Assembly (NCBI GenBank): GCA_903946925.1
Contig: CAJAXK010000372.1
Span: forward strand, 1-36,356
Direction of reading: 5' to 3'
Source of the DNA: an uncultured Bacteroidales bacterium
GTDB lineage: Bacteria; Bacteroidota; Bacteroidia; Bacteroidales; UBA4417
DNA length: 36,356 nucleotides
Positions 514 to 29,826 of this stretch are shown in pieces. Below the pieces are notes generated by a model. The model was given only the letters and a program-made list of their open reading frames with translations, was not told the DNA's origin and searched no databases. Both the position numbers and the translations under genes were made by a program. The stretch's first letter is position 1, and every line of letters starts with the position of its first letter.

Positions 514-749
514 GCACTTCGACAGACTCAGGGACCAACCCTTTGAACATTTAACAGCAAAGTGATTGAACATTTGCACTTCGACAGACTCAGTGCCCGG
601 CCTTTTTAAACTTTAACAGCGAAACGATTGCACTTCGACAGGTTCAGCTAACGGCTCTTTGAACTTTTAACAGCTAAGCGATTGAACAATTGAACATTCG
701 AACAATAGAACAAGTGAACAAGCGAACATTTGCAATTCGACAAGCTCAG
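514..749. repeat. Four degenerate ~55-65 bp repeats carrying a CTTCGACARRCTCAG core
   Basis: The core CTTCGACAGACTCAG and close variants occur at 517-531, 579-593, 633-647 and 735-749. The first three are followed by a similar tail (CTTTGAAC..TTAACAGC.AA.CGATTG); the fourth has a more degenerate tail leading into the 15-mer array. The copies are spaced 62, 54 and 102 bp apart; the last gap was widened by an octamer array. Further copies of the core lie at 20513-20527, 26237-26251 (reverse) and 31818-31832 (reverse, degenerate). No gene is visible in the spacer 399-861. Confidence 0.8.
684..731. repeat. Octamer array, six copies of GAACANNN
   Basis: Six consecutive 8-bp units share GAACA and differ in the last three bases (ATT, TTC, ATA, AGT, AGC, TTT). 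The array interrupts the series of CTTCGACA repeats and lies in the spacer downstream of the DUF5686 gene (stop at 862-864 on the minus strand). Confidence 0.85.
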
Positions 750-769
750 TGACCGATACTTTGAACCTT

Positions 770-829
770 GAACGCGAAGCAATTGAACGCGAAGCAATTG
801 AACGCGAAGCAATTGAACGCGAAGCAATT
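770..829. repeat. Perfect tandem array, four copies of a 15-bp unit
   Basis: GAACGCGAAGCAATT is repeated four times without any mismatch, followed by one more GAACA-type start. The exact identity suggests recent expansion. It ends 32 bp before the stop codon of the DUF5686 gene, on that gene's 3' side. Because 15 is a multiple of three, it creates an open reading frame on the minus strand that I do not regard as a gene. Confidence 0.9.
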
Positions 830-861
830 GAACATTTGAACCCTTAAACCTCTTTCCCTTC

Positions 862-3363
862 CTAAAAATCAAAATTCATCGAAACCATAACCCCAAAAGG
901 TTTGATATTTGGATGATCGTTGTAGAATAACCTCCAAACAGCATCCACCCTCAGGAAACGGAAAATATTTTCAAGGCCAACGCCAGCTTCCATGTATGGT
1001 TTTGTGATAAAATAACTTCCTGTAGGTAACTGATTGAAGAATTTATTCTCGTACGACGAATGGCCGTAAGCACCTTTAAACTGCACAACCTCGCGCCACT
1101 TTAGTTTTCGGATGGCAGGGATATGGTTTAGGAAAAAGCCTTGCATGTGGTAAATAAGATGATACGAAACATATTCGTCGCTTATAAACTCGTAATAATT
1201 CATCAGGTTGAACGCATAATCGTCGTGATAAAAAGTTTCGTTCCCTGGCAAAATTTTCAACAATGGGAAAGGCAATGTCCCCCAAGTTTTGCCAGCTTCG
1301 ATGGTATATTTGAGCCACCCTGCCGACAGGAAACTAAACCATTGCGAAGTATTTAGCCGCAGGCTGTGATACTTATATTCCCCGTTAAACAAACCTTTAA
1401 CACCATACGCATACTGAAAATTAAACACGGGATATTGCGAACTTACAACAGTGCGCTCAAACTCGCCCGTCAATACTTTTTCGCGGTAGCCGTAATGGAT
1501 ATCAATAGCTAATTCGGTTGTAATAATTTGGTTTCTTGGTATATAGCTGTCGCTAACAGGATCATAAAGATAAATTCCGGCACCTTCGAGGGTAAATATA
1601 CGGCGGTTGTTAATAGTAAAAGTATTATGAAAACCTGTGAACCATTCATGCTTGTAGGAACCTTTATATTCCGAAACCATCGAGAGTTTATCCTGGGGAT
1701 TTCTCCTAAAAATGGAGTTTAAAATAAAATCTTCCCTGAATGCCCCTTCCGAACCGCCCAATTGCTCCATATCGTATTTATAGGAACCCGAAAGAACACG
1801 GTCGGGGGTTTTGCCAATCATGTACATAAAACCGAGGCTGTACTTAAAATCCTGATCGCGGGTTCCATAAGCAACATAGCCGTTGAGCATCAGGCGTGTC
1901 GAAAAATCGTTGCTTGTTCGCGCCCCAATCCTGAATCGGCTGCCTTCAATTGCATTATAGCTATAGGTTGAAGCATACGGACCCCACTCCATTTTGCCTT
2001 TTACATAATATCCGGTTACTACCATTTTAATAATATCGAGATAGGTATTAAAAAGCGGCATTTTCATCAGCGTATCACTAAGCTTATACACAGAGGCCTC
2101 ACGTTTAGAAAGTGCTTCGGGGCGCGAGCTTTGCCAAAATTCATCTGTTTTACGGTTGGCATCCTCTAAAACAATTATATTGTTTGGCATCGAATAAATT
2201 TTTTCGTCGCGTACAGGGTTAAAATCGTATTTAGAGTACATCACGGTGCGTGTGCCAAAAAAACCAGTAGTTACCTTGGCATCATCCACAACATTAAAAT
2301 CGGCAACGGTTTTTTCGCGTGTTAGCATCCACTGCCCATCGGTGGTGTTATCGAACTCCTGCGAGATTACCATATCGTTGATAAAATTGATATTGGCATC
2401 GCCTGCCATACGCATTTCTAATTTTTTGAGCGCATACGAGGTATCGTTCACCCAAAAGTTACCGGTAAAAGCAAACTCCTGTTTCCGCCTTGGCTTAAAC
2501 ATGATATTATAACACCATTTATTATCGATAAATGTAGAGTCAACAAGGTAATACTTATAATATAGGAGTCCGAAATTTGAAATTGGGCTTACAAAATTCT
2601 TTTGAAAAAGGCTTATAAAATTATCATAAACCTTTACATCCTGTGCCAGGTTGCCCACAAATTGCGACATACTAGGATTTTCGACACCCGAAATTTGCGA
2701 AGCACGGATAATTTCTTTTCGTTCCCGGGGCGACTTGCGAAAATACAAATCGGAGAAAGTTTCGGAAATCATTATCGGAAGATACGTTTTGCCATTTACA
2801 ACACTTGTGTCCATTTGTTCAAATACGAACTTAAAAGGCTCCAAAATCCTTTTGTTCTGAAATTTTTCATTCAGGTTATTGATATCGAACTGCATTTTTG
2901 TATAAGCCTGGCACTGAAAAGATTCGACCTTGTCGGGATCGTTGTTCGGTTTATTTTCAATAATGCGCCGCAGGATTTTTTCGGCAGGGTTTTCGCCTGG
3001 CCTGATTACCACCCCGGTTAATTCGTAGCGTTCGGGTTCCATTAATATGTCAACCACCTGAAAACGGTTGCGCTGTATGGGCAAATAAATAGTGTTATAT
3101 CCAATGTAAGATGCTACAAGCGTGTCGGTTGCTTTGCGCGATTCGAGGGAAAAATGGCCATCGAAACCGGTGGTTGCACCAATTTGGGTGTTTTTAAAGT
3201 AAACGCTGACAAAGGGAAGGGTGTCGCCGGTTTGAGCATCACGAACCATTCCCATAATTTTTGTAGCTTCCTGAGCATGAACATGTTTAGGAATGCAAAC
3301 TGCCATAAATAGCAGCAAACCAACAAAAAGGAAAACAAATGGAATGTGTATCGGTTTATTCAT
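862..3363 (-). CDS. DUF5686 family outer-membrane protein with N-terminal carboxypeptidase-regulatory-like domain
   Basis: The protein has 833 residues. Residues 1-31 form a signal peptide ending ..KHVHAQ. About residues 35-112 form a CarboxypepD_reg-like beta-sandwich (GMVRDAQTGDTLPFVSVYFK..GATTGFDGHFSL), as found at the start of many Bacteroidota outer-membrane proteins. The rest, about 120-833, matches the DUF5686 family: an extended region followed by alternating aromatic-rich strands, ending in MVSMNFDF, with the terminal Phe usual for an outer-membrane beta-barrel. Members often occur near envelope genes, and their molecular role is not known to me. The ATG at 3363 directly precedes the signal peptide. 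It lies about 100 bp downstream of the AhpD-like gene on the same strand, so co-transcription is possible. The 3' side runs into tandem repeats. Confidence 0.88.
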   Translation of the reverse strand: MNKPIHIPFVFLFVGLLLFMAVCIPKHVHAQEATKIMGMVRDAQTGDTLPFVSVYFKNTQIGATTGFDGHFSLESRKATDTLVASYIGYNTIYLPIQRNRFQVVDILMEPERYELTGVVIRPGENPAEKILRRIIENKPNNDPDKVESFQCQAYTKMQFDINNLNEKFQNKRILEPFKFVFEQMDTSVVNGKTYLPIMISETFSDLYFRKSPRERKEIIRASQISGVENPSMSQFVGNLAQDVKVYDNFISLFQKNFVSPISNFGLLYYKYYLVDSTFIDNKWCYNIMFKPRRKQEFAFTGNFWVNDTSYALKKLEMRMAGDANINFINDMVISQEFDNTTDGQWMLTREKTVADFNVVDDAKVTTGFFGTRTVMYSKYDFNPVRDEKIYSMPNNIIVLEDANRKTDEFWQSSRPEALSKREASVYKLSDTLMKMPLFNTYLDIIKMVVTGYYVKGKMEWGPYASTYSYNAIEGSRFRIGARTSNDFSTRLMLNGYVAYGTRDQDFKYSLGFMYMIGKTPDRVLSGSYKYDMEQLGGSEGAFREDFILNSIFRRNPQDKLSMVSEYKGSYKHEWFTGFHNTFTINNRRIFTLEGAGIYLYDPVSDSYIPRNQIITTELAIDIHYGYREKVLTGEFERTVVSSQYPVFNFQYAYGVKGLFNGEYKYHSLRLNTSQWFSFLSAGWLKYTIEAGKTWGTLPFPLLKILPGNETFYHDDYAFNLMNYYEFISDEYVSYHLIYHMQGFFLNHIPAIRKLKWREVVQFKGAYGHSSYENKFFNQLPTGSYFITKPYMEAGVGLENIFRFLRVDAVWRLFYNDHPNIKPFGVMVSMNFDF

Positions 3364-3465
3364 GAATTTTTTGTCGGAACAATGTTTGTGCCAATTATAA
3401 TGTGGCAGCTAACCCTTTGTGTTAAAATTAATTAAAACGATTGGTATTTATAATAACTGGTTTGA

Positions 3466-3807
3466 TTAAAGCTTAAGGTCGTCCCAAAACTCAACGGCGC
3501 GGCGCATGTGGGGGACTACAATTGTGCCACCAACCAAAGTTGCGATGCCTAACACCTCAAATAGTTCCTCCTCTGTTACATTGTTTTCCTTGCATTTTAG
3601 CAAATGGTATTTAATGCAATCGTCGCAGCGCAACACAAGCGAAGCCACCAAACCCATAAGTTCTTTAGTTTTCACTGGCAAAGCCCCGGCTGTGTAAGCA
3701 TTGGTGTCAACATTAAAAATACGTTTCACCACCTTGTTATCAACAGAAAGGATACGTTCGTTCATCCTGGCACGGTAGTCGTTAAATTGGTCTGCTTTTT
3801 CGCCCAT
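3466..3807 (-). CDS. Carboxymuconolactone decarboxylase / AhpD-like family protein
   Basis: The protein has 113 residues if it starts at the ATG at 3807 (MGEKADQFNDYRARM..). A longer frame reaches 3879, but its first 24 residues (rich in INP and STP) are translated from the TTGATGGG repeat array, so I reject that start. The family signature is clear: RCDDCIKYH gives the C61-x2-C64-x3-H68 redox site, and the all-helical AhpD fold fits the rest, with VLGIATLVGGTIVVPHMRRAVEF at the C-terminus. AhpD-like proteins use the CxxC pair in peroxide or alkylhydroperoxide reduction or act as small decarboxylases; the substrate here cannot be inferred. It lies between kpsF and the DUF5686 gene, both on the minus strand, and is separated from kpsF by 443 bp of repeats. 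Confidence 0.87.
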   Translation of the reverse strand: MGEKADQFNDYRARMNERILSVDNKVVKRIFNVDTNAYTAGALPVKTKELMGLVASLVLRCDDCIKYHLLKCKENNVTEEELFEVLGIATLVGGTIVVPHMRRAVEFWDDLKL

Positions 3808-3825
3808 TGGTTGTTTTTTTTTAAG

Positions 3826-3867
3826 TTGATGGGTTGATGGGGTTGATGGGTTGATGGGGTTGATGGG
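3826..3867. repeat. Alternating 8/9-bp array (TTGATGGG / TTGATGGGG)
   Basis: Units TTGATGGG and TTGATGGGG alternate, giving a 17-bp period for 2.5 turns. It starts 18 bp upstream of the chosen ATG of the AhpD-like gene, so it would lie in that gene's leader. Changes in unit number could alter leader length. Confidence 0.85.
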
Positions 3868-3874
3868 TAATATG

Positions 3875-4127
3875 GTCATTCAGTGGTTGATTCGAGTGTC
3901 ATTCAATGGTTGATTCGGTGGTCATTCAGTGGTTGATTCGATTGTCAGTCTGTGGTTGATTCGGTTGTTATTCAGTGGTTGATTCAATTGTCATTCTGTG
4001 GTTGATTCGGTTGTTATTCAGTGGTTGATTCAATTGTCATTCAGTGGTTGATTCGAGTGTCATTCAGTGTTTGATTTGGTTGTCATTCAGTGGTTGATTC
4101 GAGTGTCATTCAGTGGTTGATTCGTAA
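3875..4127. repeat. Tandem array, eleven copies of a 23-bp unit
   Basis: The 19-base core GTCATTCAGTGGTTGATTC is followed by four variable bases: GAGT, GGTG, GATT, GGTT, AATT, GGTT, AATT, GAGT, GGTT, GAGT and finally GTAA. The phase is kept without a single indel over 253 bp. Units 4-5 and 6-7 form a 46-bp higher-order duplication. Core mismatches are few (for example CAATGG, CTGTGG, GTTATT). The array fills the spacer between kpsF (stop 4251) and the AhpD-like gene. It is not a CRISPR array, because there are no spacers of unique sequence. Confidence 0.95.
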
Positions 4128-4190
4128 ATCGTTATTCGTAAATCGCAAATGGATAATGGTTTTATAATTTCGACTCATTCATCTCACCGC

Positions 4191-4262
4191 ATTTTCAAAT
4201 TTTCAAATTCCCACATCCTCAAATTCCCACATTTTCACATCATCGCATTATCAAATTATCCC
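4191..4262. repeat. Octamer array, nine units, covering the kpsF stop codon
   Basis: Nine consecutive 8-bp units all start with AT and have C at position six (ATTTTCAA, ATTTTCAA, ATTCCCAC, ATCCTCAA, ATTCCCAC, ATTTTCAC, ATCATCGC, ATTATCAA, ATTATCCC). The kpsF stop (TCA at 4251-4253 on this strand, TGA in the gene) lies in unit eight, and the last codons of kpsF are inside unit nine. Just upstream of the array, the 9-mer CGTAAATCG occurs twice around 4123-4145. Confidence 0.85.
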
Positions 4263-5216
4263 CTCCTTCAATATGTCGTGCAAGTGAATCACCCCCATGT
4301 ATTTTCCTTCGTCAACAACCAAAAGTTGTGTAATGTTTTTGGAGCGCATCAAATCGAGCGCATCGCTTACCAATTCGTCCGAACCAACAGTAAGTGGGTT
4401 GGCCGAAAGGATATCTAAAGCCCTCAGACCCGAGACATCGGTGGTTCCTTGCAACATTCGGCGCAGGTCGCCATCGGTAATAATGCCGGCCAACTTATCA
4501 TTGTCCATCACGGCAGTGCAGCCTAAACGTTTCGACGAAATTTCGATAATTATTTCCCTTATCCCTTTTTCTATTGCCACCATTGGTTTTTCGTTATGGA
4601 AATACAAATCGGCGACACGCAGGTACAACCTCTTGCCAAGCGCACCACCTGGATGGTACCGCGCAAAATCGGCTGAAGTAAATCCACGGCATTCGAGCAA
4701 AGCAATAGCCAACGCATCGCCCATTACCAATTGTGCGGTTGTACTTGAGGTTGGGGCCAGGTTGTTAGGGCAGGCTTCGCGCAAAACCGATGAATCAAGT
4801 ATAACATCGGCCTGTAGTGCCAAATATGATTTTAAGTTCCCTACAAGGGCTACTAATTTGTTCCCGAGTAATTTTAACAAGGGCACCAAAACCTTTATCT
4901 CTGGGGTATTTCCACTTTTCGAAAGGCAAATAATAATGTCCTCCTGGCTTATCATACCCAAATCGCCGTGTATAGCATCGGCGGCATGCATAAAAACAGC
5001 CTGTGTACCAGTAGAATTCAGGGTAGAAACAATTTTTGCCGCAATATTTGCACTTTTGCCAATGCCCGTAACAACCACTTTGCCTTTTGATTGCAAAATG
5101 AGTTCGACGCATTTTACAAAATCGTCGTTAATTCCATTTCTAAGACCTTCAATTGCAGCCGTTTCTTCTGCAATAGTTTGAAGTGCAATCTGTTTAATTT
5201 CGTTTGAGGATTTCAA
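4251..5216 (-). CDS. kpsF: D-arabinose-5-phosphate isomerase, KpsF/GutQ (KdsD) family
   Basis: This enzyme makes arabinose-5-phosphate from ribulose-5-phosphate, the first step of KDO synthesis for LPS inner core. The protein shows a SIS domain (GIGKSANIAAKI, then ISKSGNTPE, then HPGGALGKR) followed by two CBS domains over roughly the last 120 residues. I start it at the TTG at 5216, giving 321 residues, the usual family length. The frame is open to another TTG at 5333, but that would add 39 residues of non-conserved hydrophobic sequence, and a good -7 element (TATCTTTG, 5248-5241) lies inside it, so transcription would start downstream of 5333. No in-frame ATG fits. The gene is divergent from recQ. 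Its stop codon and last two residues fall in an octamer repeat array. Confidence 0.93.
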   Translation of the reverse strand: MKSSNEIKQIALQTIAEETAAIEGLRNGINDDFVKCVELILQSKGKVVVTGIGKSANIAAKIVSTLNSTGTQAVFMHAADAIHGDLGMISQEDIIICLSKSGNTPEIKVLVPLLKLLGNKLVALVGNLKSYLALQADVILDSSVLREACPNNLAPTSSTTAQLVMGDALAIALLECRGFTSADFARYHPGGALGKRLYLRVADLYFHNEKPMVAIEKGIREIIIEISSKRLGCTAVMDNDKLAGIITDGDLRRMLQGTTDVSGLRALDILSANPLTVGSDELVSDALDLMRSKNITQLLVVDEGKYMGVIHLHDILKEGII

Positions 5217-5240
5217 TACCGGGTTGTTAAATTGAACCAG

Positions 5241-5248
5241 CAAAGATA
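5241..5248 (-). promoter_or_regulatory. Bacteroidota -7 promoter element of kpsF
   Basis: TATCTTTG on the minus strand matches TAnnTTTG exactly. It lies 25 bp before the TTG start at 5216, which would leave a leader of roughly 20 nt. No clear -33 TTG at the usual distance was seen. Confidence 0.6.
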
Positions 5249-5398
5249 GGAAGAAAAGCCGGAAATGATTTTTGAAACAAATTGCGTCATTAAGCCAACT
5301 ATAAAAGCTCTTTCCCCTTTGTAAATATATCAATATTTAGAGCCGTATATTGGTTAGTTAGAGTCTGTCCACAGAGTTGGGTTTTAATTCTATTTACG

Positions 5399-5456
5399 AT
5401 GTACGAGTTACAATTGACGAGCCTAACTCACTGAAAAACAATTGTAAGCGGTACAT
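5399..5456. promoter_or_regulatory. Long inverted repeat (dyad) in the kpsF-recQ spacer
   Basis: ATGTAC-N3-TTACAATTG on the left is mirrored exactly by CAATTGTAA-N3-GTACAT on the right, around a 22-base loop. The arms pair over 15 of 18 positions, with a symmetric 3-base mismatch. On the plus strand the right arm runs into TTTTT, so it could act as a terminator-like hairpin; otherwise it could be a protein-binding dyad. Confidence 0.6.
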
Positions 5457-5664
5457 TTTTGGTTAAACCAAGATTAAAAACACACACTAATTAAAATTAT
5501 ACCCCAAAGGGTTGCAAAAAAATATCCAGATTTTTTCATTTGATTTGCCCGATCAAAAAACTTAAAATGAAGAACCACAACTAAGCATCGTGATTAAAAG
5601 AGTTTTTTTAGAACGGGCCCATTGTTAAAATTTTCTTAATTACAAATTGCTTTGATTTTAATTA

Positions 5665-5672
5665 TACTTTTG
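5665..5672 (+). promoter_or_regulatory. Orphan Bacteroidota -7 promoter element
   Basis: TACTTTTG in the context TTATACTTTTGCACCC is a very typical Bacteroidota start region. A TTG lies 15 bp upstream, which is shorter than the usual spacing. The next gene, recQ, begins 450 bp downstream, so the transcript has either a long leader or is a separate small RNA. Confidence 0.5.
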
Positions 5673-6123
5673 CACCCTTTTTGGTTAACCCAACAATGAA
5701 GTTGGTATTTTTGCTTTAAATTTATGTGGCAGTGCGGATAAATAAACCTGGGTCGATTTGCGTTAAGAGCAATAAATTAAATAATTCAGAGTTTTTTTAT
5801 TTGGCTTGGAATTAATTAACCAACTGAATACAAAATGGTTACATTTAATGCATTAAAAAAAAATATTTTCAGGTTTATTTTTTTTGCATTTTCACGAAAA
5901 GTTGTATTAACTTTACCTTATACAACGGTAATCAACCTAAAATTTAGACTCATTTGTACACTTTAACCATACCGGTAAGCCGTGGGTATTTTTGAAAAAA
6001 TGGGTCTAAACAAGTAAGAAAAAATATGCCGGATGTAATGGGATTTTAACACAACAGATTAATTCTCATTTTTACCTTGCCTAAGTATCAATAAAGCAAG
6101 CATCACAAACCGATGCGAATAAT

Positions 6124-8349
6124 ATGAATAATGCCAGTGGAATGAAAAAAAATGCAGATTTCAAAGATTATCCATTACAATCTACTCTCAAAAAAATATT
6201 TGGTTTCGAGAGTTTTAAAGGAAATCAGGAAGCAATAATCAAGAATTTACTCAAAGGCAACGATACTTTTGTAATCATGCCAACGGGTGGAGGCAAGTCC
6301 ATGTGTTACCAATTGCCGGCAATGTTATTGCCTGGCACCGCCATAGTGATTTCCCCACTAATATCACTAATGAAGAACCAAGTAGATGCCATGAGGCAAT
6401 TTGGCGCCGATAAAGGCATCGCCCATGTGTTGAACTCTTCATTGTCGAAGGTTGAGGTATTACAGGTAAAAAGCGATCTGACCGAGGGAAAAACAAAACT
6501 TCTTTATGTGGCACCCGAATCGCTCACCAAAGAAGAAAATATTGCCTTTTTCAGGGATATCAAAGTATCGTTTTATGCCATTGACGAAGCGCATTGCATC
6601 TCGGAATGGGGCCATGATTTCAGGCCAGAATACAGGCGGCTACGGCCTATAATCGATGCTATTGGTCAGGATGTCCCGGTGCTTGCCCTTACCGCTACCG
6701 CAACGCCAAAAGTGCAACAGGACATACTCAAAAGTTTGGGCATGCAGGAAGCAGCCCTTTATAAATCCTCGTTTAACCGCTCCAACCTCTATTATGAAGT
6801 AAAGCAGAAAAACGATGATGTTAACAAGGATGTAATCCGGTTTATTAAAATGCACACCGGCAAATCGGGTATAATTTACTGCCTGAGCCGGCGACAAGTA
6901 GAGGAGTTGGCTGAAACACTTGTAGTTAACGGAATTAAAGCATTGCCATACCATGCAGGCTTGGATTCGTCGGTCAGGGTCGAGAACCAGGATAAATTCC
7001 TGATGGAAGAGTCGGATGTAATTGTTGCCACCATTGCTTTTGGGATGGGGATTGACAAACCTGATGTGCGCTTTGTAATACATTACGATATGCCCAAGAG
7101 CCTCGAAGGATACTATCAGGAAACAGGGCGTTCGGGCCGCGACGATGGCGAAGGCATTTGTCTTGCATTCTACGCTTATGAGGATATTGAAAAACTCGAA
7201 AAATTTAGTAAAAACAAAGGTGTTGCAGAGCAGGAAATAGCTAACCAATTATTAATGGAAGTAGTTTCCTTTGCCGAATCGGCCATGTGCCGCCGCAAAC
7301 AACTGCTGCATTATTTTGGCGAAATTTATAAAGAGGATAATTGTGGCAATTGCGATAACTGCCTGCATCCAAAAACCAAAATTGATGGCCGCGAATATGT
7401 TGACCTTGCACTTGAAACTGTACTGGCTACCAAACAATTATGCAAAGCAAAACATATTGTAAGCATATTAATCGGCAAAGTTACCTCGCACATTAAATCC
7501 TACAAGCACAACGAACTTGATGTTTTCGGCAAGGGGATGGAAGAGAGCGAGCGTTTTTGGGATGGCGTTGTGCGTCAGATGCTTATCGAAAGGCTTGTGG
7601 TAAAGGACATCGAAAATTATGGCATTCTGAAAATTACACCCGAAGGGCAAAAGTTTTTAAAGAAACCGTATGCCGTGATGGTGGTAAAAGATACCGATCC
7701 TGAAGAAGGGGACGATGATGAAATGATGTCGGGTGGCGGTGCGCGTACCAGCACTACCGACAAAACGCTTTTCTCCCTTTTAAAAGACCTTCGCAAGGAA
7801 CTTGCACGCAAAGAAAGCTTGCCGCCGTTTGTCATATTCCAGGATCCTTCGCTCGAAGACATGGCGATACAGTATCCTATCAATATGGATGAACTTCAGC
7901 GGATTACAGGTGTTGGCGCAGGCAAAGCCCAAAAGTATGGAAAACCATTCCTGGAACTTATTTCATCGTATGTGGAGGAAAATGAAATTATCAGGCCAAT
8001 GGATATGGTGGTAAAATCAGTTGTAAATAAATCGGGGTTAAAAGTCTATATTATTACCAATATCGACCGCAAAATCCTGCTCGAAGATATTGCAACAGCC
8101 AAAAACCTGACTGCCGACGAGTTGCTCACCGAAATTGAAAGCATAGTTGATTCTGGCACCAAACTCGACCTTACTTATTACCTTAACGAAACCATTGACC
8201 CATACCACCAAGAAGAAATAAGGGATTATTTTATGGAAGCCGAAACTGATTCGGTAGAGCAGGCACTGAGGGATTTAGGCGAAAACGAATTTACCGAAGA
8301 GGAAATAAGGTTGGTCCGTATCAAATACATTTCCGAAGTTGGCAATTAA
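6124..8349 (+). CDS. recQ: ATP-dependent DNA helicase RecQ
   Basis: The protein has 741 residues. RecQ unwinds DNA 3' to 5' in recombinational repair. Visible in order: Walker A MPTGGGKSMCYQLPA (K58), DEAH box AIDEAHCISEWGHDFR (about 154-157), the motif VI arginine region YYQETGRSGRD (about 331-340), the RecQ zinc site C389 with C407, C410 and C413 (CGNCDNC), a winged-helix RQC domain, and an HRDC domain about 545-625 (GVGAGKAQKYG). About 110 further residues after HRDC look helical and acidic, as in the long RecQ form common in this phylum. The ATG at 6124 is used; a second ATG at 6142 is an equally possible start and would drop six residues. A hairpin terminator follows at 8386-8419. Confidence 0.96.
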   Translation: MNNASGMKKNADFKDYPLQSTLKKIFGFESFKGNQEAIIKNLLKGNDTFVIMPTGGGKSMCYQLPAMLLPGTAIVISPLISLMKNQVDAMRQFGADKGIAHVLNSSLSKVEVLQVKSDLTEGKTKLLYVAPESLTKEENIAFFRDIKVSFYAIDEAHCISEWGHDFRPEYRRLRPIIDAIGQDVPVLALTATATPKVQQDILKSLGMQEAALYKSSFNRSNLYYEVKQKNDDVNKDVIRFIKMHTGKSGIIYCLSRRQVEELAETLVVNGIKALPYHAGLDSSVRVENQDKFLMEESDVIVATIAFGMGIDKPDVRFVIHYDMPKSLEGYYQETGRSGRDDGEGICLAFYAYEDIEKLEKFSKNKGVAEQEIANQLLMEVVSFAESAMCRRKQLLHYFGEIYKEDNCGNCDNCLHPKTKIDGREYVDLALETVLATKQLCKAKHIVSILIGKVTSHIKSYKHNELDVFGKGMEESERFWDGVVRQMLIERLVVKDIENYGILKITPEGQKFLKKPYAVMVVKDTDPEEGDDDEMMSGGGARTSTTDKTLFSLLKDLRKELARKESLPPFVIFQDPSLEDMAIQYPINMDELQRITGVGAGKAQKYGKPFLELISSYVEENEIIRPMDMVVKSVVNKSGLKVYIITNIDRKILLEDIATAKNLTADELLTEIESIVDSGTKLDLTYYLNETIDPYHQEEIRDYFMEAETDSVEQALRDLGENEFTEEEIRLVRIKYISEVGN

Positions 8350-8385
8350 TCGTTTAACAGATAAGTGTTTTTTTTAACTTCGCAG

Positions 8386-8419
8386 CCTGATTCATTTTAT
8401 TGTGGATCAGGTTGTTTTT
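8386..8419 (+). terminator. Rho-independent terminator after recQ, in the leader of the next gene
   Basis: CCTGATTCA (8386-8394) pairs with TGGATCAGG (8403-8411) over nine pairs including one G-T, with an 8-base loop, followed by TTGTTTTT. It lies 37 bp after the recQ stop and 27 bp before the next ATG. A near-match -7 element (TAACTTCG, about 8375-8382) precedes it, so the hairpin could also sit in a short transcript leader of the Skp-like gene. Confidence 0.6.
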
Positions 8420-17933: not shown

Positions 17934-17965
17934 TTAGGCTTTTAGACTTGTAGGCTTGTAGGAGC
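17934..17965. repeat. Short octamer array, four units (xTAGGCTT type)
   Basis: Units TTAGGCTT, TTAGACTT, GTAGGCTT and GTAGGAGC follow each other in phase. They lie in the 646-bp spacer 17683-18328 between the OmpA-family gene and the sirtuin. Apart from this array, the heptamer array and the promoter element, I see nothing in that spacer. Confidence 0.55.
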
Positions 17966-18229: not shown

Positions 18230-18327
18230 ATCCGACATCCGCAATCCGACATCCACAATCCGACATCCGCCATCCACAATCCGCCATCCCACATCCGCCA
18301 TCCCACATCCGCCATCCCACATCCGAA
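18230..18327. repeat. Heptamer array, fourteen copies of ATCCNNN, abutting the sirtuin stop codon
   Basis: Fourteen 7-bp units keep ATCC and vary in the last three bases (GAC, GCA, ACA, GCC, CAC, GAA). Later units alternate ATCCGCC and ATCCCAC, a 14-bp higher-order period. A partial fifteenth ATC follows and runs into the sirtuin stop (TCA at 18329-18331 on this strand). Because 7 is not a multiple of three, all three plus-strand frames stay open across it and yield false reading frames rich in His-Pro. Confidence 0.92.
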
Positions 18328-18328
18328 A

Positions 18329-19024
18329 TCAACCCTTTTCTTGCTCCAACAACTGTTTCACAAGCTTTGGTACACCTTTTCCTGCTGTTTCGCGAATAAC
18401 GGTAAGGTTTTTTACATCGGGCAGCATTTCGGCATGAGGGTCTATTAGGTAAACGGGTGTTCCTCTTTTAACATAATATACAAGTCCGGCAGCCGGATAC
18501 ACATTGAGCGAAGTGCCGATTACAATAAAAATATCAGCTTCTGCCGAAAGTTTTTGTGCAGGCGCAATCATGGGTACAGCTTCGCCAAACCAGACGATAT
18601 GCGGACGGAGCTGCGATCCCTCTTCGCATTTGTCGCCTTTTTTTAACTCCCAGCCATCTAGGGTGTAAACCAGGTTTTCGTCTAAAGTGCTCCTTACTTT
18701 TTTTAGTTCACCATGCAGGTGAAGCACTTTGGTGGAGCCGGCTTGTTCGTGAAGGTCATCCACATTTTGGGTGATAATTTGTACATCAAAATTTTTCTCC
18801 AGTTTTACCAGCGCATTATGCCCGGCATTTGGTTTAACCTCGTATAACTGCTTGCGTCTCTGGTTGTAAAACTCCAGCACCAGGTCGGGGTTCCGCTTCC
18901 AGGCATCAAATGTGGCCACATCCTCTATGCGGTGCTGCTCCCACAATCCGTTGGAATCGCGGAAAGTGCTGATGCCGCTTTCAGCACTTATTCCAGCACC
19001 GGTGAGTATTACGATCTTTTTCAT
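18329..19024 (-). CDS. NAD-dependent protein deacylase, SIR2 family (class III-like)
   Basis: The protein has 231 residues. Sirtuins remove acyl groups from lysines while consuming NAD. The NAD-binding start GAGISAESGISTFRDSNGLW, the QNVDDLH motif (about 86-92) and the catalytic His in LHLHGEL (H104) are all present. Y53-N-Q-R56 (FYNQRRKQL) is the Tyr-x-x-Arg pair that in class III sirtuins (SIRT5, bacterial CobB) binds acidic acyl groups, so desuccinylase or demalonylase activity is likely. The zinc-binding Cys tetrad is missing: only one Cys (KCEEG) lies in that region, as in some bacterial class III members. The start ATG at 19024 follows an exact promoter element that overlaps the stop codon of the upstream T9SS gene. 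The 3' end abuts a heptamer array. Confidence 0.93.
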   Translation of the reverse strand: MKKIVILTGAGISAESGISTFRDSNGLWEQHRIEDVATFDAWKRNPDLVLEFYNQRRKQLYEVKPNAGHNALVKLEKNFDVQIITQNVDDLHEQAGSTKVLHLHGELKKVRSTLDENLVYTLDGWELKKGDKCEEGSQLRPHIVWFGEAVPMIAPAQKLSAEADIFIVIGTSLNVYPAAGLVYYVKRGTPVYLIDPHAEMLPDVKNLTVIRETAGKGVPKLVKQLLEQEKG

Positions 19025-22615: not shown

Positions 22616-22713
22616 CAAACCCCGTTCGAAATAAGTTGATCACCTGTAATACAAGCCCGTAAATCATTTCGTAAAAAAATGGTTGGATCCATACCTAATA
22701 GCTAAGCTTAAAA

Positions 22714-23730: not shown

Positions 23731-23742
23731 TAACAGCGTTGT

Positions 23743-24114: not shown

Positions 24115-24254
24115 TTTTCGTGAAAGGAAATCCTATTAATAGGTTGCAACTATCAACCCAGAACCACTTTACTATTTTGTGAGCACTTAAATTGCTTAAA
24201 ACTAATACCCGACTCTATAAACAGACCCTAAACGATAACCACTGATTCCTACCC

Positions 24255-26087
24255 ATGACTTTTGACCTGTTTGTGCTTCCGTTTTTTTTTGGGCTTATAT
24301 TCCTGACTGTTGTTTTAGTGCAAAAATACAGCCGCTGGATAGCAATGATGGATTCATCTGACCGGGTAAAAGCAGGTATGGCGCTTTTCTCAGTCAACCT
24401 GCTAAAATCTATAAAGGAAGTGGTGCTCGAAAGCCTTTTGCACCGTAAAATGTTTAAGCGAAACCCTTTGCTGGGATATATGCACATGAGTTTCGCTTTG
24501 GGATGGTTACTGCTCATAATATTGGGCAACCTCGAATCGCGGGTTTATAGCGGAGGTCACATAAACCCGCCTTATTATCCAATATTCCTCAAATTTTTTA
24601 TCCACGACAAACGGGTATTACCCTTCGAGCTTTTTACCCTGCCCGGTTTTTTTAGGTTTATCATGGACTTTATCCTGCTTTTTGTCCTTTCCGGATTGGT
24701 ACTTGCACTTTTCAAGCGAACCCGCTCGAAGTGGTTTGGACTAAAAAAAACTACCCAGCATAATTCGTTCGATAAATGGGCAATTACTTCCCTGTGGCTC
24801 ATTTTTCCGATGCGGTTACTGGCCGAAAGTTTTACGGCAGGCCTGTATCAAGGAGGTGGATTCCTGACCAACACACTTGGGAGCATTTTCGATGCAATAC
24901 TTCCGTTGCAATATCTGGCTTATCCCGCGTGGTGGGCATATTCGACCATGCTGGGCATTTTTTTCGTAACGCTTCCCTGGAGCCGGTTTATGCACATCCC
25001 AACCGAAATTGTTCTGATTTTTTTGCGGAATGCCGGAATTGAGCAGGGAAAATATCCTGGCAGTTTCAGCGAAATCGAACTTAGTTCCTGCCCGCGATGT
25101 GGGGTTTGCATTGATGTTTGCCAAATGAACGAGGTAGATAAAACAAGTTCAACCGCTGTTTACCTGATACGCTCCTTGCGCGACCAACAGCCTGACAAAC
25201 AACTCAATGCCAACTGCATGATGTGTGGCCGCTGTCTTCAGGCCTGTCCAGTTGGTATCGATACGCTGGGTTTGCGCGTGGGCGCAAGGAGCGTTGACAA
25301 CAAAAGCATTGCAATGGATTTTAGCTATCTCAAAAAACAGCCGTTTGTTGGGGAAGAAACTGGGATAGTTTATTTTGCAGGTTGTATGGGACACCTTACC
25401 CCAGGCGTTAAACGTGCCATTGTACAAATTTTTAACCATGCCAAAATTGATTTTACTTTTCTCGACGAAGATGGTTCGATATGCTGTGGCCGCCCCTTAA
25501 AGCTTGCCGGACTTCGGGAAGCTGCCTCAAAACTGGTTTCGGAAAATACCCGGATGATAAAAAACACAGGCGCACAGCTTTTGGTAACCTCCTGCCCTAT
25601 TTGCCTTAAAACGTTCAACAACGATTATCAACTCGAAGGAATGAAAGTTATGCACCATTCCGTTTATATCGACAAACTGGTTACTGAAGGCAAACTTGCA
25701 CTGCGCCCCGAAGAACTGAAAGCAGTTTATCATGATCCATGTGAACTGGGAAGAGGTTCGGGCATTTACGAGCAACCCCGCAATGTGTTGAAACAAATTG
25801 CCGAAGTTGCCGATGTAGCCGAAGAGCAGGAGAATTCGTTATGTTGCGGGGGCAGCATCGGTGAACTGGCAATGGATTTTACACAGCGGAACATTATCCG
25901 CGACAATGCGCTTAAAATCCTCTGCGAATCAAAGCCCGATTTACTGGTAACAGCTTGCCCACTCTGCAAAAAAACCTACGATTCGGCAAATTGCATAAAG
26001 GTTAAAGATATTGCCGAAGTAGTTGCCGCAAACCTGGTTTCGGTTAAACATCAGCCAAAAACAACAGAAATGGTTGAACAGGGGTAA
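24255..26087 (+). CDS. Membrane-anchored FeS oxidoreductase, HdrD/FadF-like (NarI-type anchor + 2x[4Fe-4S] + two CCG domains)
   Basis: The protein has 610 residues. The first 255 or so hold about five membrane helices with His residues that could ligate heme b (GYMHMSFALGW, WSRFMHIPTE). Two 4Fe-4S motifs follow (CPRCGVCIDVCQM and CMMCGRCLQACPV), and then two complete CCG domains: FAGCMG..SICCGRPL..SCPIC and YHDPCELG..SLCCGGS..ACPLC. This architecture is that of HdrD fused to a NarI-like anchor, as in FadF or ETF:menaquinone oxidoreductases, and it most likely reduces or oxidises menaquinone. It is the last gene of the locus. Both CCG sites are intact, in contrast to the HdrB-like protein of the same locus. 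A run of GCCTAAA repeats and then MITE copy B follow. Confidence 0.88.
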   Translation: MTFDLFVLPFFFGLIFLTVVLVQKYSRWIAMMDSSDRVKAGMALFSVNLLKSIKEVVLESLLHRKMFKRNPLLGYMHMSFALGWLLLIILGNLESRVYSGGHINPPYYPIFLKFFIHDKRVLPFELFTLPGFFRFIMDFILLFVLSGLVLALFKRTRSKWFGLKKTTQHNSFDKWAITSLWLIFPMRLLAESFTAGLYQGGGFLTNTLGSIFDAILPLQYLAYPAWWAYSTMLGIFFVTLPWSRFMHIPTEIVLIFLRNAGIEQGKYPGSFSEIELSSCPRCGVCIDVCQMNEVDKTSSTAVYLIRSLRDQQPDKQLNANCMMCGRCLQACPVGIDTLGLRVGARSVDNKSIAMDFSYLKKQPFVGEETGIVYFAGCMGHLTPGVKRAIVQIFNHAKIDFTFLDEDGSICCGRPLKLAGLREAASKLVSENTRMIKNTGAQLLVTSCPICLKTFNNDYQLEGMKVMHHSVYIDKLVTEGKLALRPEELKAVYHDPCELGRGSGIYEQPRNVLKQIAEVADVAEEQENSLCCGGSIGELAMDFTQRNIIRDNALKILCESKPDLLVTACPLCKKTYDSANCIKVKDIAEVVAANLVSVKHQPKTTEMVEQG

Positions 26088-26110
26088 AGTGGATTTTGCA
26101 ACTATTCAGT

Positions 26111-26156
26111 GCCTAAAGAAGTGAGTGCCTAAAAGCCCACAGCCTAAAAGCCTAAA
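26111..26156. repeat. Four GCCTAAA repeats at the 3' side of the Hdr-like locus
   Basis: GCCTAAA occurs at 26111, 26127, 26142 and 26150, a loose array starting 24 bp after the stop of the HdrD/FadF-like gene. Spacing is irregular (16, 15, 8), unlike the strictly phased arrays elsewhere. The rest of the spacer 26088-26656 holds MITE copy B and AT-rich sequence. Confidence 0.5.
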
Positions 26157-26203
26157 TCAATTATTTGGTATGTTCTTCGGATTTCGGGTATAAGATGAAT
26201 GGT

Positions 26204-26430
26204 TGAGTCCACTCCGACAAGTCTTTTTTCGCCACAAAGTGATACACTGAGCTTGCCGATGAGGCACTAAATCTCTAAGTTTACTCACAATTGCTTATTT
26301 TAAAGGAGTTCGTGATATCGCTTCGCTAAGTTCACAAAGTTTATAGTGCTGATTAACAATACTCTGTGTACCTCTGTGTCCTCCATGCCTCCGTGGTTTT
26401 TTCTTTTTTAGGGTTATCGGAGCGGACTCA
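26204..26430. mobile_element. MITE-like element, copy B (227 bp)
   Basis: The ends TGAGTCCACTCCGACAA and, inverted, TGAGTCCGCTCCGATAA match at 15 of 17 positions. The element is flanked by TGGT on both sides (26200-26203 and 26431-26434), a likely 4-bp target duplication. Its interior is related to copy A and contains a CTTCGACARRCTCAG-type core in reverse (26237-26251) absent at this position in copy A, and a CCTCTGTGTCCTCCATGCC stretch of a kind common in dispersed repeats of environmental genomes. No transposase is encoded; a 66-codon frame on the minus strand across it is not convincing. Confidence 0.78.
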
Positions 26431-26620
26431 TGGTTACGTTTTTTCAAATATAATAAGCTGTATAAAAAAAGATTCCTTATTATTGCCCTTCGCAACCGGG
26501 AAATAAGAATTGGTGGTTTTTATTGGTTTTTTGTCTTTTTTGCTATGTACATGCTGTGCCATTTGCTTTGTGTGTTGCAAATAAATTGCAGGCTCCATCT
26601 TTTTTATACGCCCAAAACAT

Positions 26621-26628
26621 TAACTTTA
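26621..26628 (+). promoter_or_regulatory. Possible -7 promoter element of the histidine kinase gene
   Basis: TAACTTTA differs from TAnnTTTG in the last base and lies 29 bp before the ATG at 26657. No other candidate was seen between MITE copy B and the gene. Confidence 0.3.
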
Positions 26629-26656
26629 GCCCATTCAGCTTAGTATAACCCTCATT

Positions 26657-29600
26657 ATGAAACAATTACCGAACATACTTTTAGTTGACGACACCCCGGA
26701 AAACCTTGTTTTAGTAGAATCCATCATCAACCACTTAGAAATCAACATCATTAGTGCACAATCTGGGCTTGAGGCTTTGTCGAAAAGCAGGGGCGTTGAA
26801 TTAGCACTTGCAATTCTTGATGTTCGGATGCCAATTATGAATGGGTACGAACTGGCGACCAAACTAAATGAGGACCGCACAGACGATAAAGTTCCAATCA
26901 TTTTTCTTACCGCAAACCATTTCAACGAAATGGAGTTGTACAAAGGATACGATGCAGGTGCCGTTGACTATATGTTCAAACCAATCAACAACCCAATACT
27001 ATTAAGCAAAATAAACGTATTCCTCGAAATATATAAGCAAAAAAAGAAAATCATCGACAATGCGGCAATCATCGAAAAATCAGCCAACGATTTGTTCGGT
27101 GTAGTTCAAGCATTGAGAAAAAGCGAGGAAAAATTCAGGTCAGTTACCCATTCGGCCAGTGATGCCATTATTACGTCCGACCATAAAGGGAAAATAACAG
27201 GGTGGAACCTTGGTGCCGAGAGGATATTCGGTTACAAGGAGGCCGAAATGATGGGAAAGGAACTTAGCCTGATAATGCCAAAACAATTTGCCGAACACCA
27301 TGCCAAAAACATCAAAAATGCAGTTGAAAAAGGTGTTAGGAATATTATTGGCAAAACTACCGAACTGGTTGGGCTTCATAAACTGGGGAATGAGTTTCCG
27401 ATAGAATTGTCCTTATCGGAATGGGAAACCGCATCAGGCTTGTTTTTTACCGGTATTATCCGCGACATAAGCAGCCGCAGACTTGCAGAAAAAGAACTTC
27501 AGCAAAGCAAAGCCAACCTCGAAGAAGCACAACGCATTGCACATATAGGTAGCTGGCAGTGGGATATGGTAGCAAACACGGTAAAATGGTCGGCAGAAAT
27601 GTTTAGGATTTTTGATATCGATCCCGAAACCTACGATGGCGATCCAAAAGCCATGCTGCCAAAACTGCACCCCGACGATGTTGCCTTGTTTACCAACAGC
27701 ATGAGCGCTAATTTGGAAGATGGAAGTTCGCCGGTTCTCGAATACCGCATACTCCACAAGGATGGCACTGTCCACTATGTGATAGCCGAAGGCCTGGTAT
27801 CGTATGATGAACAGGGCAAACCGTTGAAAAGCATTGGCACGGTGCAGGATATAACAAGCCGAAAACTTGTCGAAAAAAAACTGCGCGAAAGCGAATCGCA
27901 CTTCACATCGCTTTTCGAAAATATGATTGATGGGTTCGCCTATTGCCAAATTTTATTAAAAGACAACCTCCCCAGCGATTTTATTTACCTGCAAGTGAAC
28001 AAGAGTTTTGAAACCTTGACCGGCTTGGTTGGGGTGGTTGGCAAAAAAGTATCCGAAATCATTCCCGGCATTGCCGAAACAAACCCTGAATTGATTGCAA
28101 CGTATGGAAGGGTAGCAATTACGGGCATTCCTGAAACATTTGAAGTGTATATTGCTACTTTAAAAATGTGGCTTTCGATATCCGCCTACAGCCCCGGGAA
28201 AGGCTATTTTGTGGCCATATTCGAAGTTATTACCGACCGCAAACAAGCCAACGAGGCTTTGCAGAAAAGCGAGGAACTGTTTAAGTCGGTTGTTAACAAT
28301 AGCAACGATCTAACTTCGCTCACCAATGCCGAAGGGGAAATTGTATATTTAAGCCCGCAGTGCGAAAACGTGCTGGGGTATGGCCCCGAAAAATTTATTG
28401 GGACGAGCATCCCCGAAATCATACATGCTGATGATAAGGAAAGGTGCATCAAAGCCTGGGAAGATATATTCTTCAACGATAACGAAATGTACGAGTTCGA
28501 ATACCGTATCATTGATGGCGGTGGCGAAGTGAGGTGGATGTCGCACAACGCAAAAATGGTGCATGCAAACGGCAGGATTGTAGGCATGCAGAATACCATA
28601 CGCAACATAACCCGGCGCAAACTTGCCGAACAAGCCTTGAAAGTTAACGAGGAAAAATACAGGACTTTGTTGAATTCGTCGCCCGATGGCATTTTGTTGA
28701 TCGACCTAAAAGGCACTATTCTCGAAGTGTCAGAAATTGGGCTTGAACTTCTTGGCTCCGCCAACAGGGACGAATTGTTGGGCCTCGATTTCCTCGATTT
28801 TGTGCCACCCGACGAAACACCTATTGCCAAGGAAATTATAGAAAAAACATTGAGCGAAGGGCTTGTGCAAAACACACAGTTGAAAATTAGGAGAAAAAAC
28901 GCGACCTTGTTTTTTAGCGAAATAAGTTCGACACTTATACAGGATCCCGACGGGGTGCCAATATCGTTCATGATGATTATCCGCGATATTACACAAAGGA
29001 TGAAAATGGAAGCAAAGCAGTTTCATGCCGACCGTATGCCAAACCTTGGCGAAATGGCTTCGGGCATTGCCCACGAAATAAACCAGCCGTTAAATATCAT
29101 TTCGCTTATAATGGACAATATTTTGTTTGAGGCCAGCAAGGAAAAGATGATAGAAAAGGATTACCTCAGACGGAAAATTGACAAAATATTCGAAAATATT
29201 ACACGTATCCGAAATATAATCGACCACGTAAGGGCCTTTTCGCGGAGCAACGACGATTATATTTTAACCGATTTTGCCATCAATACGAGTATTCGGAATG
29301 CCGTGGCAATGGTTTCGGAACAGTTCAACCATTTGGCAATTTACATCAACCTTCAGTTACAGGAAAACTTGCCCCAAATTTTGGGAAATACCATTAAATT
29401 TGAGCAGGTAATCATAAATTTGTTGTCGAATGCCAAGGACGCCCTGCTCGAAAAGAAGGAAATAGAAAAAGCGGAATTCGCCATGTTTATTTTGATAAAA
29501 ACATATTTAGAAAAACAATATGTTGTAATCGAAGTAACCGATAACGGAACAGGTATCAGCAAGGAAGATATTGACCATATAATGCTACCGTTTTATACCA

Positions 29601-29776
29601 CCAAAGATTCGGGTAAAGGGACTGGTTTGGGTCTGTCCATTTCGTACCAAATCATAAAAGACATGGATGGCAGCATCGAAATATCGGACAACGAGTTTCT
29701 GGGAACAACTTTTAGGATAAGTTTGAAGGTGAAGGAGTTGATGGTGAATAATGAAGAGTTAATAGTTAATAGTTAA
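26657..29776 (+). CDS. Hybrid sensor histidine kinase: N-terminal receiver, five PAS domains, NtrB-type kinase core
   Basis: The protein has 1039 residues and no membrane segment, so it is cytoplasmic. Residues 1-125 are a receiver domain (D11, D12, phosphoacceptor D55 in LAILDVRMP, K108 in FKPI). Five PAS/PAC modules follow at about 155-280, 290-410, 415-530, 540-660 and 665-785, each ending in a RDIT/RNIT-like motif. The kinase core has H806 in GEMASGIAHEINQPLNII, the HxxNQPL form found in NtrB/DctB-type kinases, and an ATPase domain with N-box NLLSNAKDAL, DNGTGI and GKGTGLGLSI. It is followed by an NtrC-type regulator after 209 bp, its probable partner. The last codons (ELIVNS) and the stop lie inside an AGTNNNN heptamer array, so the C-terminal tail is repeat-derived. 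Confidence 0.92.
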   Translation: MKQLPNILLVDDTPENLVLVESIINHLEINIISAQSGLEALSKSRGVELALAILDVRMPIMNGYELATKLNEDRTDDKVPIIFLTANHFNEMELYKGYDAGAVDYMFKPINNPILLSKINVFLEIYKQKKKIIDNAAIIEKSANDLFGVVQALRKSEEKFRSVTHSASDAIITSDHKGKITGWNLGAERIFGYKEAEMMGKELSLIMPKQFAEHHAKNIKNAVEKGVRNIIGKTTELVGLHKLGNEFPIELSLSEWETASGLFFTGIIRDISSRRLAEKELQQSKANLEEAQRIAHIGSWQWDMVANTVKWSAEMFRIFDIDPETYDGDPKAMLPKLHPDDVALFTNSMSANLEDGSSPVLEYRILHKDGTVHYVIAEGLVSYDEQGKPLKSIGTVQDITSRKLVEKKLRESESHFTSLFENMIDGFAYCQILLKDNLPSDFIYLQVNKSFETLTGLVGVVGKKVSEIIPGIAETNPELIATYGRVAITGIPETFEVYIATLKMWLSISAYSPGKGYFVAIFEVITDRKQANEALQKSEELFKSVVNNSNDLTSLTNAEGEIVYLSPQCENVLGYGPEKFIGTSIPEIIHADDKERCIKAWEDIFFNDNEMYEFEYRIIDGGGEVRWMSHNAKMVHANGRIVGMQNTIRNITRRKLAEQALKVNEEKYRTLLNSSPDGILLIDLKGTILEVSEIGLELLGSANRDELLGLDFLDFVPPDETPIAKEIIEKTLSEGLVQNTQLKIRRKNATLFFSEISSTLIQDPDGVPISFMMIIRDITQRMKMEAKQFHADRMPNLGEMASGIAHEINQPLNIISLIMDNILFEASKEKMIEKDYLRRKIDKIFENITRIRNIIDHVRAFSRSNDDYILTDFAINTSIRNAVAMVSEQFNHLAIYINLQLQENLPQILGNTIKFEQVIINLLSNAKDALLEKKEIEKAEFAMFILIKTYLEKQYVVIEVTDNGTGISKEDIDHIMLPFYTTKDSGKGTGLGLSISYQIIKDMDGSIEISDNEFLGTTFRISLKVKELMVNNEELIVNS

Positions 29777-29826
29777 TAGTGAAGAGTGAAAAGTGAAAAG
29801 TGAAAAGTGGATAGAAAATAGGGAAA
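29757..29826. repeat. Heptamer array (AGTNNNN), containing the histidine kinase stop codon
   Basis: Units AGTTAAT x3, AGTGAAG, AGTGAAA x3, AGTGGAT and two decayed units (AGAAAAT, AGGGAAA) run in strict 7-bp phase. The kinase stop TAA (29774-29776) is in the third unit, and the five preceding codons are also repeat-encoded. A gain or loss of units would change the C-terminal residues but keep a stop close by, because TAA/TAG occurs in every AGTTAAT frame. Confidence 0.9.

Follow-up and report, generated by a model that had tools for sequence, protein, structure and literature searches.

Why should a single stretch of bacterial chromosome carry several short, strictly phased tandem arrays of quite different sequence, some of them running into the stop codons of genes? 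The window considered here, meaning the whole stretch that was analyzed, comprises 36,356 nucleotides (contig C372, positions 1-36356) from an uncultured Bacteroidales bacterium whose draft genome, hereafter G000, totals 6.17 Mb over 498 contigs. A first-pass annotation of these letters described six arrays, each with an invariant core followed by variable bases, and proposed either a genome-wide system acting at gene 3′ ends or a mutational process that recruits local sequence. All six arrays are present, and similar arrays recur throughout the genome. The feature that they share is an orientation: beside either end of a gene, the array strand that leads away from the gene is usually rich in G and poor in C. 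We consider, with a probability of about one half, that the arrays are fast-evolving intergenic satellite families, built mainly from units of 7 or 8 bp and kept mostly in one orientation. Such a side product, held under selection, seems to us more likely than a dedicated 3′-end device.

The survey draws on a sample of 93 contigs of G000 (1.097 Mb of the 6.17 Mb), with a G+C content of 39% over the first 666 kb. Genes were called with a home-made hexamer model (740 genes, 81% coding), which misses small genes and leaves starts uncertain, and arrays were detected by lag-matching at two settings, one for the first 666 kb and then one for the full 1.097 Mb. This yields 184 arrays, of which 172 are intergenic and 12 coding; 136 lie between two called genes and provide the placement counts below, and 36 belong to neither the coding nor the placed class. 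Among the coding arrays, the period is a multiple of three in 11 of 12. Intergenic periods are dominated by 7 (66 arrays) and 8 (49), followed by 9 (11), 14 (9) and a remainder with fewer each. The first 666 kb contain 86 arrays versus 2 in one dinucleotide shuffle, and four tandem copies of ATCCNNN match at 460 places in the whole genome versus 2 for the reversed pattern. The expectation of genome-wide occurrence is borne out in the sample, and scaling up from the sample would give roughly a thousand arrays for the whole genome.

Grouping of the arrays by the unit profiles of their G-rich strands, with membership that depends on a similarity threshold of 0.66, resolves heptamer families of the GGAT type (22 arrays), TGGTTAW (13) and AAGGKYA (10), and octamer families GNNAATKT (15), KGGGTTGA (11), TAGGCKKT (7) and ATNGAACA (5), besides many small clusters. 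Within families, entropy per unit position ranges from near 0 up to 1.8 bits, and variable positions on the G strand are seldom C, with exceptions such as one column each of the GGAT and AAGG families. The phasing of variable positions, as first described, holds at this level: when distinct units are counted once, six of seven families show mismatches more concentrated by column than in any of 2000 permutations. It does not hold for the TAGG family, which did not pass the same test, and in single arrays it reaches p<0.05 in only 23 of 88. The core-plus-variable build is thus objective and mainly a family property, which may partly reflect shared descent of the units. Clustered regularly interspaced short palindromic repeats (CRISPR) consist of constant repeats with unique spacers of about 30 bp between them; the present units measure 7-23 bp, contain few variable bases and are not so built.

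Placement and polarity at gene borders

Intergenic gaps are unequally occupied. The 136 placed arrays occur at 1.10 per kb in codirectional and 1.15 per kb in convergent gaps versus 0.34 per kb in divergent ones, and their median distance to the nearest gene boundary is 20 bp versus 50 bp at random (minimum 35.5 bp over 1000 draws), so that placement is non-random with respect to gene ends, as anticipated. The claim of a 3′-end system fares less well, since arrays occupy both ends of genes: of 107 arrays in codirectional gaps, 64 are closer to a 3′ end (p = 0.053) and 43 to a 5′ end. A dedicated system of this kind, serving transcript termination or protection of mRNA 3′ ends, appears quite improbable. 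It would agree with the exact abutment of many arrays to genes, 34 arrays beginning within 3 bp of a stop versus 6 within 3 bp of a start, and with the stop codon TAG, which is commoner beside arrays (21 of 48 array-adjacent gene ends versus 103 of 423 array-free ones; p = 0.006, uncorrected). It is at odds with the 43 arrays that lie closer to a 5′ end and with a crude scan for intrinsic terminators, found at 1 of 38 array-bearing versus 32 of 305 array-free codirectional cases (p = 0.15) and at 2 of 10 versus 30 of 118 convergent ones (p = 1). Gaps of G000 with arrays are only slightly more foldable (median z on the two strands -1.4 and -2.2, n = 62) than array-free gaps (-0.9 and -1.3, n = 50). 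Displacement of intrinsic terminators by arrays was rejected as a cause, the crude scan giving no significant difference.

Common to the two gene ends is the polarity of the arrays. When each boundary is represented by the array closest to it, up to a distance of 20 bp, the outward strand is G-rich and C-poor in 63 of 68 cases and C-rich in 4, with one tie; this count includes one array per boundary, and the binomial p values assume independent arrays. The ratio of outward-G to outward-C arrays is 43:4 plus the tie at 3′ ends and 20:0 at 5′ ends, and with increasing distance from the stop it is 23:0 (0 bp), 10:3 (1-5 bp) and 10:1 (5-20 bp). Over all 136 placed arrays it amounts to 104:26, and the polarity disappears once both boundaries are more than 100 bp away (11:9). 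C makes up 7.7% of the outward strand in outward-G arrays beside 3′ ends and 2.8% in those beside 5′ ends. Where a gap has an array on each side, the G-rich one is on the left and the C-rich one on the right in 21 of 31 instances, with the opposite order in 1, and restriction to neighboring genes with scores above 60 leaves 48:2 of 51 within 20 bp.

At 5′ ends a selective reason can be suggested. Array-free gaps show an outward GC skew of +0.27 over the first 20 bp before starts and of -0.01 after stops; the 5′ polarity therefore follows a general preference, whereas the 3′ polarity does not. Leaders that are poor in G and free of stray ATG, GTG or TTG would be the likely reason for the polarity on this side, and they would be enough to account for 5′ borders; the density of start codons in arrays is 0.115 on the G strand versus 0.025 on the C strand. 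Array-free DNA that follows stops lacks GC skew, and local composition by itself was therefore rejected for 3′ ends. Genes beside arrays are themselves more G-skewed over their last 30 nt, at 0.62, 0.46 and 0.39 in three bins for the 48 array-adjacent genes versus 0.25, 0.19 and 0.12 for the 423 others.

A filter imposed by stop codons was also rejected as the origin of the 3′ polarity. Among 40000 simulated insertions, survivors had G:C ratios of 1439:863 at 0 bp, 763:712 at 1-5 bp and 3031:2950 at 5-20 bp, a filter too weak for the observed 23:0, 10:3 and 10:1. Outward promoters were likewise discarded, since the motif TANNTTTG is present 3 times on the G strand versus 9 times on the C strand of the arrays.

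A single function that would cover polarity at both gene ends is insulation by the termination factor Rho: RNA heading into a gene through an array, as antisense at a 3′ end or as read-through at a 5′ end, would be C-rich and G-poor and load Rho, so that unwanted transcription halts at the border. By a simplified version of the RhoTermPredict criterion, 78-nt windows resembling Rho utilization (rut) sites occur on the inward strand at 7 of 56 3′ ends and 4 of 27 5′ ends that have an array no farther than 50 bp away, versus 3 of 306 and 1 of 344 borders of array-free gaps; on the outward strand of the same array borders the counts are only 1 of 56 and 0 of 27. The arrays that would serve in this way, outward-G and within 20 bp of genes, have a median length of 69 bp, and a match to TIGR00767 (637.6 bits) marks a rho gene in G000. 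Yet no such window exists at 49 of the 56 and 23 of the 27 array borders (11 of 83 have one), the enrichment is a consequence of composition, and the other borders of array-bearing gaps show no difference between strands (1 and 1 of 34; 2 and 2 of 55). In addition, a C-rich tract may come to lie in a gene's own leader when the array is 5-50 bp upstream of the start. On balance, inward-facing Rho insulators seem unlikely. A broader version is likewise decidedly doubtful. It would be a rule of gene borders for array-rich bacterial genomes at large: the outgoing strand would be kept C-poor at both gene ends, with unrelated repeat families as exchangeable means to that end, and the arrays would be inward-facing Rho-loading tracks, or an equivalent directional signal, shielding genes from intergenic transcription, with families exchanged while position and polarity are retained. 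The rho gene itself (L289; C415:1686-3782), a single match, lies in an open frame of 714 codons versus the 415 positions of the family model.

A further possibility is directional growth. If extension or overwriting proceeds only one way along the G strand, the arrays that survive would be those facing away from a gene, which would cover both the equal polarity at the two gene ends and its disappearance at a distance from genes. The units themselves offer little sign of it, as adjacent-unit identity is 0.763 versus 0.742 in the two halves of arrays (n = 85, p = 0.07) and the corresponding comparison in arrays more than 50 bp from genes gives p = 0.25 (n = 26). Judged from the homogeneity of units, where the gradient is not significant, directional growth was set aside as a cause, and we regard it as distinctly improbable.

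G-quadruplex elements, which have been proposed for GGGNATC repeats, are extremely improbable here. GG tracts do occur in some families, with four GGG tracts in 9 of 136 arrays and four GG tracts in 55 more, but the polarity is undiminished in arrays lacking four GG tracts (31:1 plus one tie, of 33 within 20 bp). That the polarity extends over several families of one genome, over arrays free of G tracts and over genomes of other Bacteroidota families argues against quadruplexes as the cause and suggests a factor that gene borders have in common.

Related species and other lineages

Fifteen genomes of the same genus (G001-G015) were searched, and polarity was counted in several of these and in genomes of other lineages. 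In the same genus, G003 gives outward-G to outward-C counts of 15:4 (10:1 within 20 bp), and two genomes of other families replicate the polarity, with 22:4 (7:0 within 20 bp) in G322 and 7:0 (6:0 within 20 bp) in G401. Other samples, too small to be informative, give 4:1 (G001), 3:2 (G004), 4:2 (G002), 1:1 (G013) and 1:0 (G011), with no arrays placed in G320 and G166. Matches of the ATCC type guided the choice of all G401 stretches, of five among the six from G322 and of some from G003 and G004, so that array density in them is biased. Five tandem copies of ATCCNNN are found in 59 of 395 Bacteroidota genomes; the matches listed are often pure repeats, and variable triplets appear in, for example, G322 and G401.

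These two genomes bring up a further possibility, namely that each gap holds a hairpin element with two mirrored arms, the G arm first, and that the polarity is a by-product of palindromy. In G322, inverted repeats exceed all 6 unit-shuffled controls in 13 of 14 gaps, and the variable units stand in mirrored order where inspected. Folding is strong in both genomes, with a median z of about -9 in G322 (n = 14; array-free -2.7) and -14.6 in G401 (n = 6; array-free -3.9), where all 6 gaps fall below -4. In G000, 26 of 67 gaps exceed their 6 inverted-repeat controls, with about 10 expected. However, the left and right arrays of a gap in G000 share no more inverted 6-mers than swapped pairs do (0.050 versus 0.057; 31 pairs, of which 2 exceed 0.3), and single-array gaps are equally polar (30:3 within 20 bp), so that hairpins fail as a general cause in G000 and are very improbable as the explanation of the arrays. 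Palindromy looks like an added state and not like the cause of the polarity.

Three gaps of G322 (L260:17741-17996, L260:5330-5615 and L261:8914-9111) each form one long hairpin with mirrored heptamer-array arms at -115 to -165 kcal/mol, and hairpins of this type are met in divergent, convergent and codirectional gaps.

Orthologous gene ends were compared, six by eye against up to four other species and six against G002, one of the latter being cut at a contig end. G002, whose proteins match those encoded in the window at 93% (Sir2) and 90% (kpsF-like), has the same array type, though other units, at the ends of the kpsF-like, Sir2 and kinase genes, and the Sir2 stop is accompanied by about 3 units versus 14 in G000. 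Elsewhere the family itself differs: the end of L050:347-2752 has TTACGA-type units in G002 versus GGATTGC in G000, and at L049:20421-22568 G002 is array-free despite a similar gene end. After L222:12661-13098 there are GGAT units in G000, TTTACGA units in G003 and none in G009 and G005; after L222:15982-16434 an array exists in G000 alone, of four species; and L222:17514-17987 is followed by a clear array in G000, by a brief stretch resembling it in G002, and by nothing of that type in G003, G009 and G005. Kept features are found as well, since the flanks after L222:14974-15774 are G-rich in all four species seen, with different sequences, and a TTAATGG/AAAATAG type after L207:15614-16930 is common to all four.

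In G005 and G001 the kpsF-like gene is array-free and ends in ATAATCTGA, where the adjacent octamer of G000 is ATAATTTG-like. A C-poor, array-like gene end is therefore possible without an array, and the suggestion that local sequence is recruited retains some room in this respect. It falls short as a full account, because families recur at up to 22 sampled loci and local sequence alone is thus insufficient to create the arrays.

Known repeats and a proposed origin

The literature search yielded two direct precedents, both from 2015, and the closest known match found is the GGGNATC type of repeat in Xanthomonas and Nostoc. Rehm et al. (2015; PMC4692102) describe heptamers of the form GGGAATC or GGGGA(C/T)T, with variable positions summarized as GGGANTN, that are mostly intergenic and few between divergent genes, with overlap of stop codons and with inverted pairs. 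By the same account, the G strand begins near the neighboring gene and points away from it, whatever the direction of that gene (28 versus 160 nt in xanthomonads), and 83% of the arrays lie in the same gene context in two related species, with changed lengths. The polarity itself is thus already known for one heptamer type (Rehm et al., 2015; PMC4692102).

The arrays of G000 resemble these heptamers in having 7-bp units with fixed and variable positions, in being intergenic (172 of 184) and sparse in divergent gaps (0.34 versus 1.10 and 1.15 per kb), and in the G strand averted from genes at both ends (63 of 68). They differ in including 8-bp units (49 of 172), nearly as frequent as heptamers; in lacking the consensus GGGNATC/GGGGAYT with its GGG tracts, the GGAT type being the nearest family; in comprising several families in one genome, where the known repeats form one G-tract family per lineage; in polarity that persists without G tracts; in families that differ at one gene end between relatives; and in inverted arms that are mostly unmatched. 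As far as our searches show, the apparently new elements are several families under one polarity, the octamers, the independence from G tracts, the polarity of short arrays and the change of family at a kept position.

Other repeats are more distant. MacGregor (2015; PMC4679880) reports intergenic tandem TAACTGA heptamers in Beggiatoaceae, Cyanobacteria and five Bacteroidetes, mostly just upstream of starts in the main strain, with shorter, repeat-free gaps in some close relatives. The G000 arrays are likewise intergenic tandem heptamers, but that system, as reported there, has one unit type, and two tandem copies of TAACTGA occur 0 times on either strand of the 1.097 Mb sample. The introduction of Rehm et al. 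(2015; PMC4692102) mentions three tandem heptanucleotides for Calothrix. The analogy with heptamers drawn in the first-pass annotation was sound, although it named the cyanobacterial short tandemly repeated repetitive (STRR) sequences as nearest, a place that, among the matches found, goes to the GGGNATC type. STRR sequences are dispersed tandem heptamers and in this resemble the arrays of G000. Repetitive extragenic palindromic (REP) sequences and bacterial interspersed mosaic elements (BIME) are also intergenic, rich at gene ends and poor in promoter regions, as the arrays are; REPs are palindromes, in contrast to the short head-to-tail units of G000.

The following origin is proposed for the satellite families. 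Arrays would grow and shrink through whole-unit slippage, from which changing copy number with kept phase would follow; the earlier argument that slippage could not preserve the phase of variable positions would therefore lose its force, as whole-unit slippage should keep phase on its own. Families may pass from locus to locus as copies, or may be recruited where C-poor gene ends offer short homologies. Arrays within genes, in promoter regions or misoriented beside a gene would be removed by purifying selection, which would account for the near-absence of arrays from genes and their scarcity in divergent gaps. The orientation rule would call for some feature that separates coding from non-coding DNA regardless of gene direction, which in practice might mean selection at gene borders, perhaps together with directional growth. 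If the arrays are functional, they would constitute a border signal without fixed sequence, hard to detect by alignment; if they are not, they provide a clean case of satellites shaped by the place and direction that genes tolerate.

Several observations weigh against this proposal. In divergent gaps, arrays nearest a 5′ end are at 7:4, which is not significant, and the 3′ polarity within 20 bp is 36:1 in gaps longer than 200 bp and 7:3 in shorter ones (≤200 bp). Among arrays with the other boundary over 60 bp away, short ones (about 2-4 units) are already polar (3′ ends, 19:3; 5′ ends, 17:0, in four low score bins; 5:1, 7:1, 3:0 and 4:1 at 3′ ends with rising score), and this suits a bias at origin as well as it suits selection. 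After L207:4807-6732, C-rich units come first in G000, G002 and G003 and G-rich ones in G009. Copying between loci is something we infer: a composite array motif is found in 13 gaps versus 8 for its reversed control, and 798 of 884 exact 24-mers common to several gaps are not periodic.

Arrays and other features of the window

The arrays and the genes that they adjoin are as follows.

684-731, no strand (G = C, no polarity): GAACANNN octamer array of 6 exact units; family of 5 sampled arrays
768-833, no strand: perfect 15-mer array TTGAACGCGAAGCAA, 4.4 copies, in the same gap as the GAACANNN array
3825-3868, plus strand: GTTGATGG(G) array beside the 5′ end of the gene at 3466-3807 (minus strand), with its G strand leading away from that gene
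3875-4127, plus strand: 23-mer array of 11 units; substitutions reach the "core" positions too
4191-4262, minus strand: octamer array of 9 units, GATAATTT-like on the minus strand, overlapping the kpsF-like stop; family of 15 sampled arrays
4251-5243, minus strand: kpsF-like gene with SIS and CBS domains, start uncertain
17934-17965, plus strand: TAGxCTT octamers, 3 units and a broken fourth (about 3.5, weak); family of 7 sampled arrays
18230-18330, minus strand: ATCCNNN array (GGATNNN on the minus strand), its 14 exact units at 18230-18327, abutting the Sir2 stop; family of 22 sampled arrays
18329-19024, minus strand: Sir2-family (sirtuin) gene, by domain match
26657-29776, plus strand: histidine kinase gene, an open reading frame (ORF) with domains in its last 258 codons and final codons of array sequence
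29745-29826, plus strand: AGTKAAN heptamer array across the kinase stop codon; an AGTGAAC-type array is at the same gene end in G002

Three of the six arrays first described do contain or abut a stop codon, namely those of the kpsF-like gene (4251), the Sir2 gene (18329) and the histidine kinase (29776). The other three had been placed just past 3′ ends, which is not where they lie: the nearest stops are 133 bp (684-731), 126 bp (3875-4127) and 366 bp (17934-17965) away, and the latter two arrays are closer to 5′ ends, at 67 and 246 bp. The TAGxCTT array has a score of 18, just at the detection threshold. In the octamers at 4191-4262, the invariant positions are AT and the C at position 6.

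The six arrays are indeed not of one sequence within the window, but calling them unrelated is misleading, as four belong to families of 5, 15, 7 and 22 arrays in the sample. The remaining two also have relatives: the 23-mer recurs at several places in G002 and in six further contigs of the sample, with 10 copies in L209, and the AGT array, which stands alone in the clustering, is nearest to an AGTGAAA array in L037. The AGTNNNN part of the AGT array of the window (29757-29826) has 10 units, with the core broken in the last two.

Two arrays were absent from the first list. That at 3825-3868 is KGGGTTGA-like, and G002 has the same type at the same boundary; the perfect 15-mer array at 768-833 lies 28 bp from the stop of the gene at 862-3306 (minus strand), with a slightly negative outward skew (-0.13).

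Beside the first arrays, positions 513-680 carry REP-like copies of CACTTCGACAGRCTCAG. An 18-mer similar to CACTTCGACAGRCTCAG is found in 8 gaps of the sample versus 0 for its reversal, sometimes within CAATAAC arrays. Two dispersed repeats of roughly 140-230 bp occupy positions 26202-26437 and 5354-5495, and over 20 places in G002 resemble the former. Lastly, an exact 21-bp repeat of 2.5 copies (32345-32397), with a period that is a multiple of three, lies within a long ORF.

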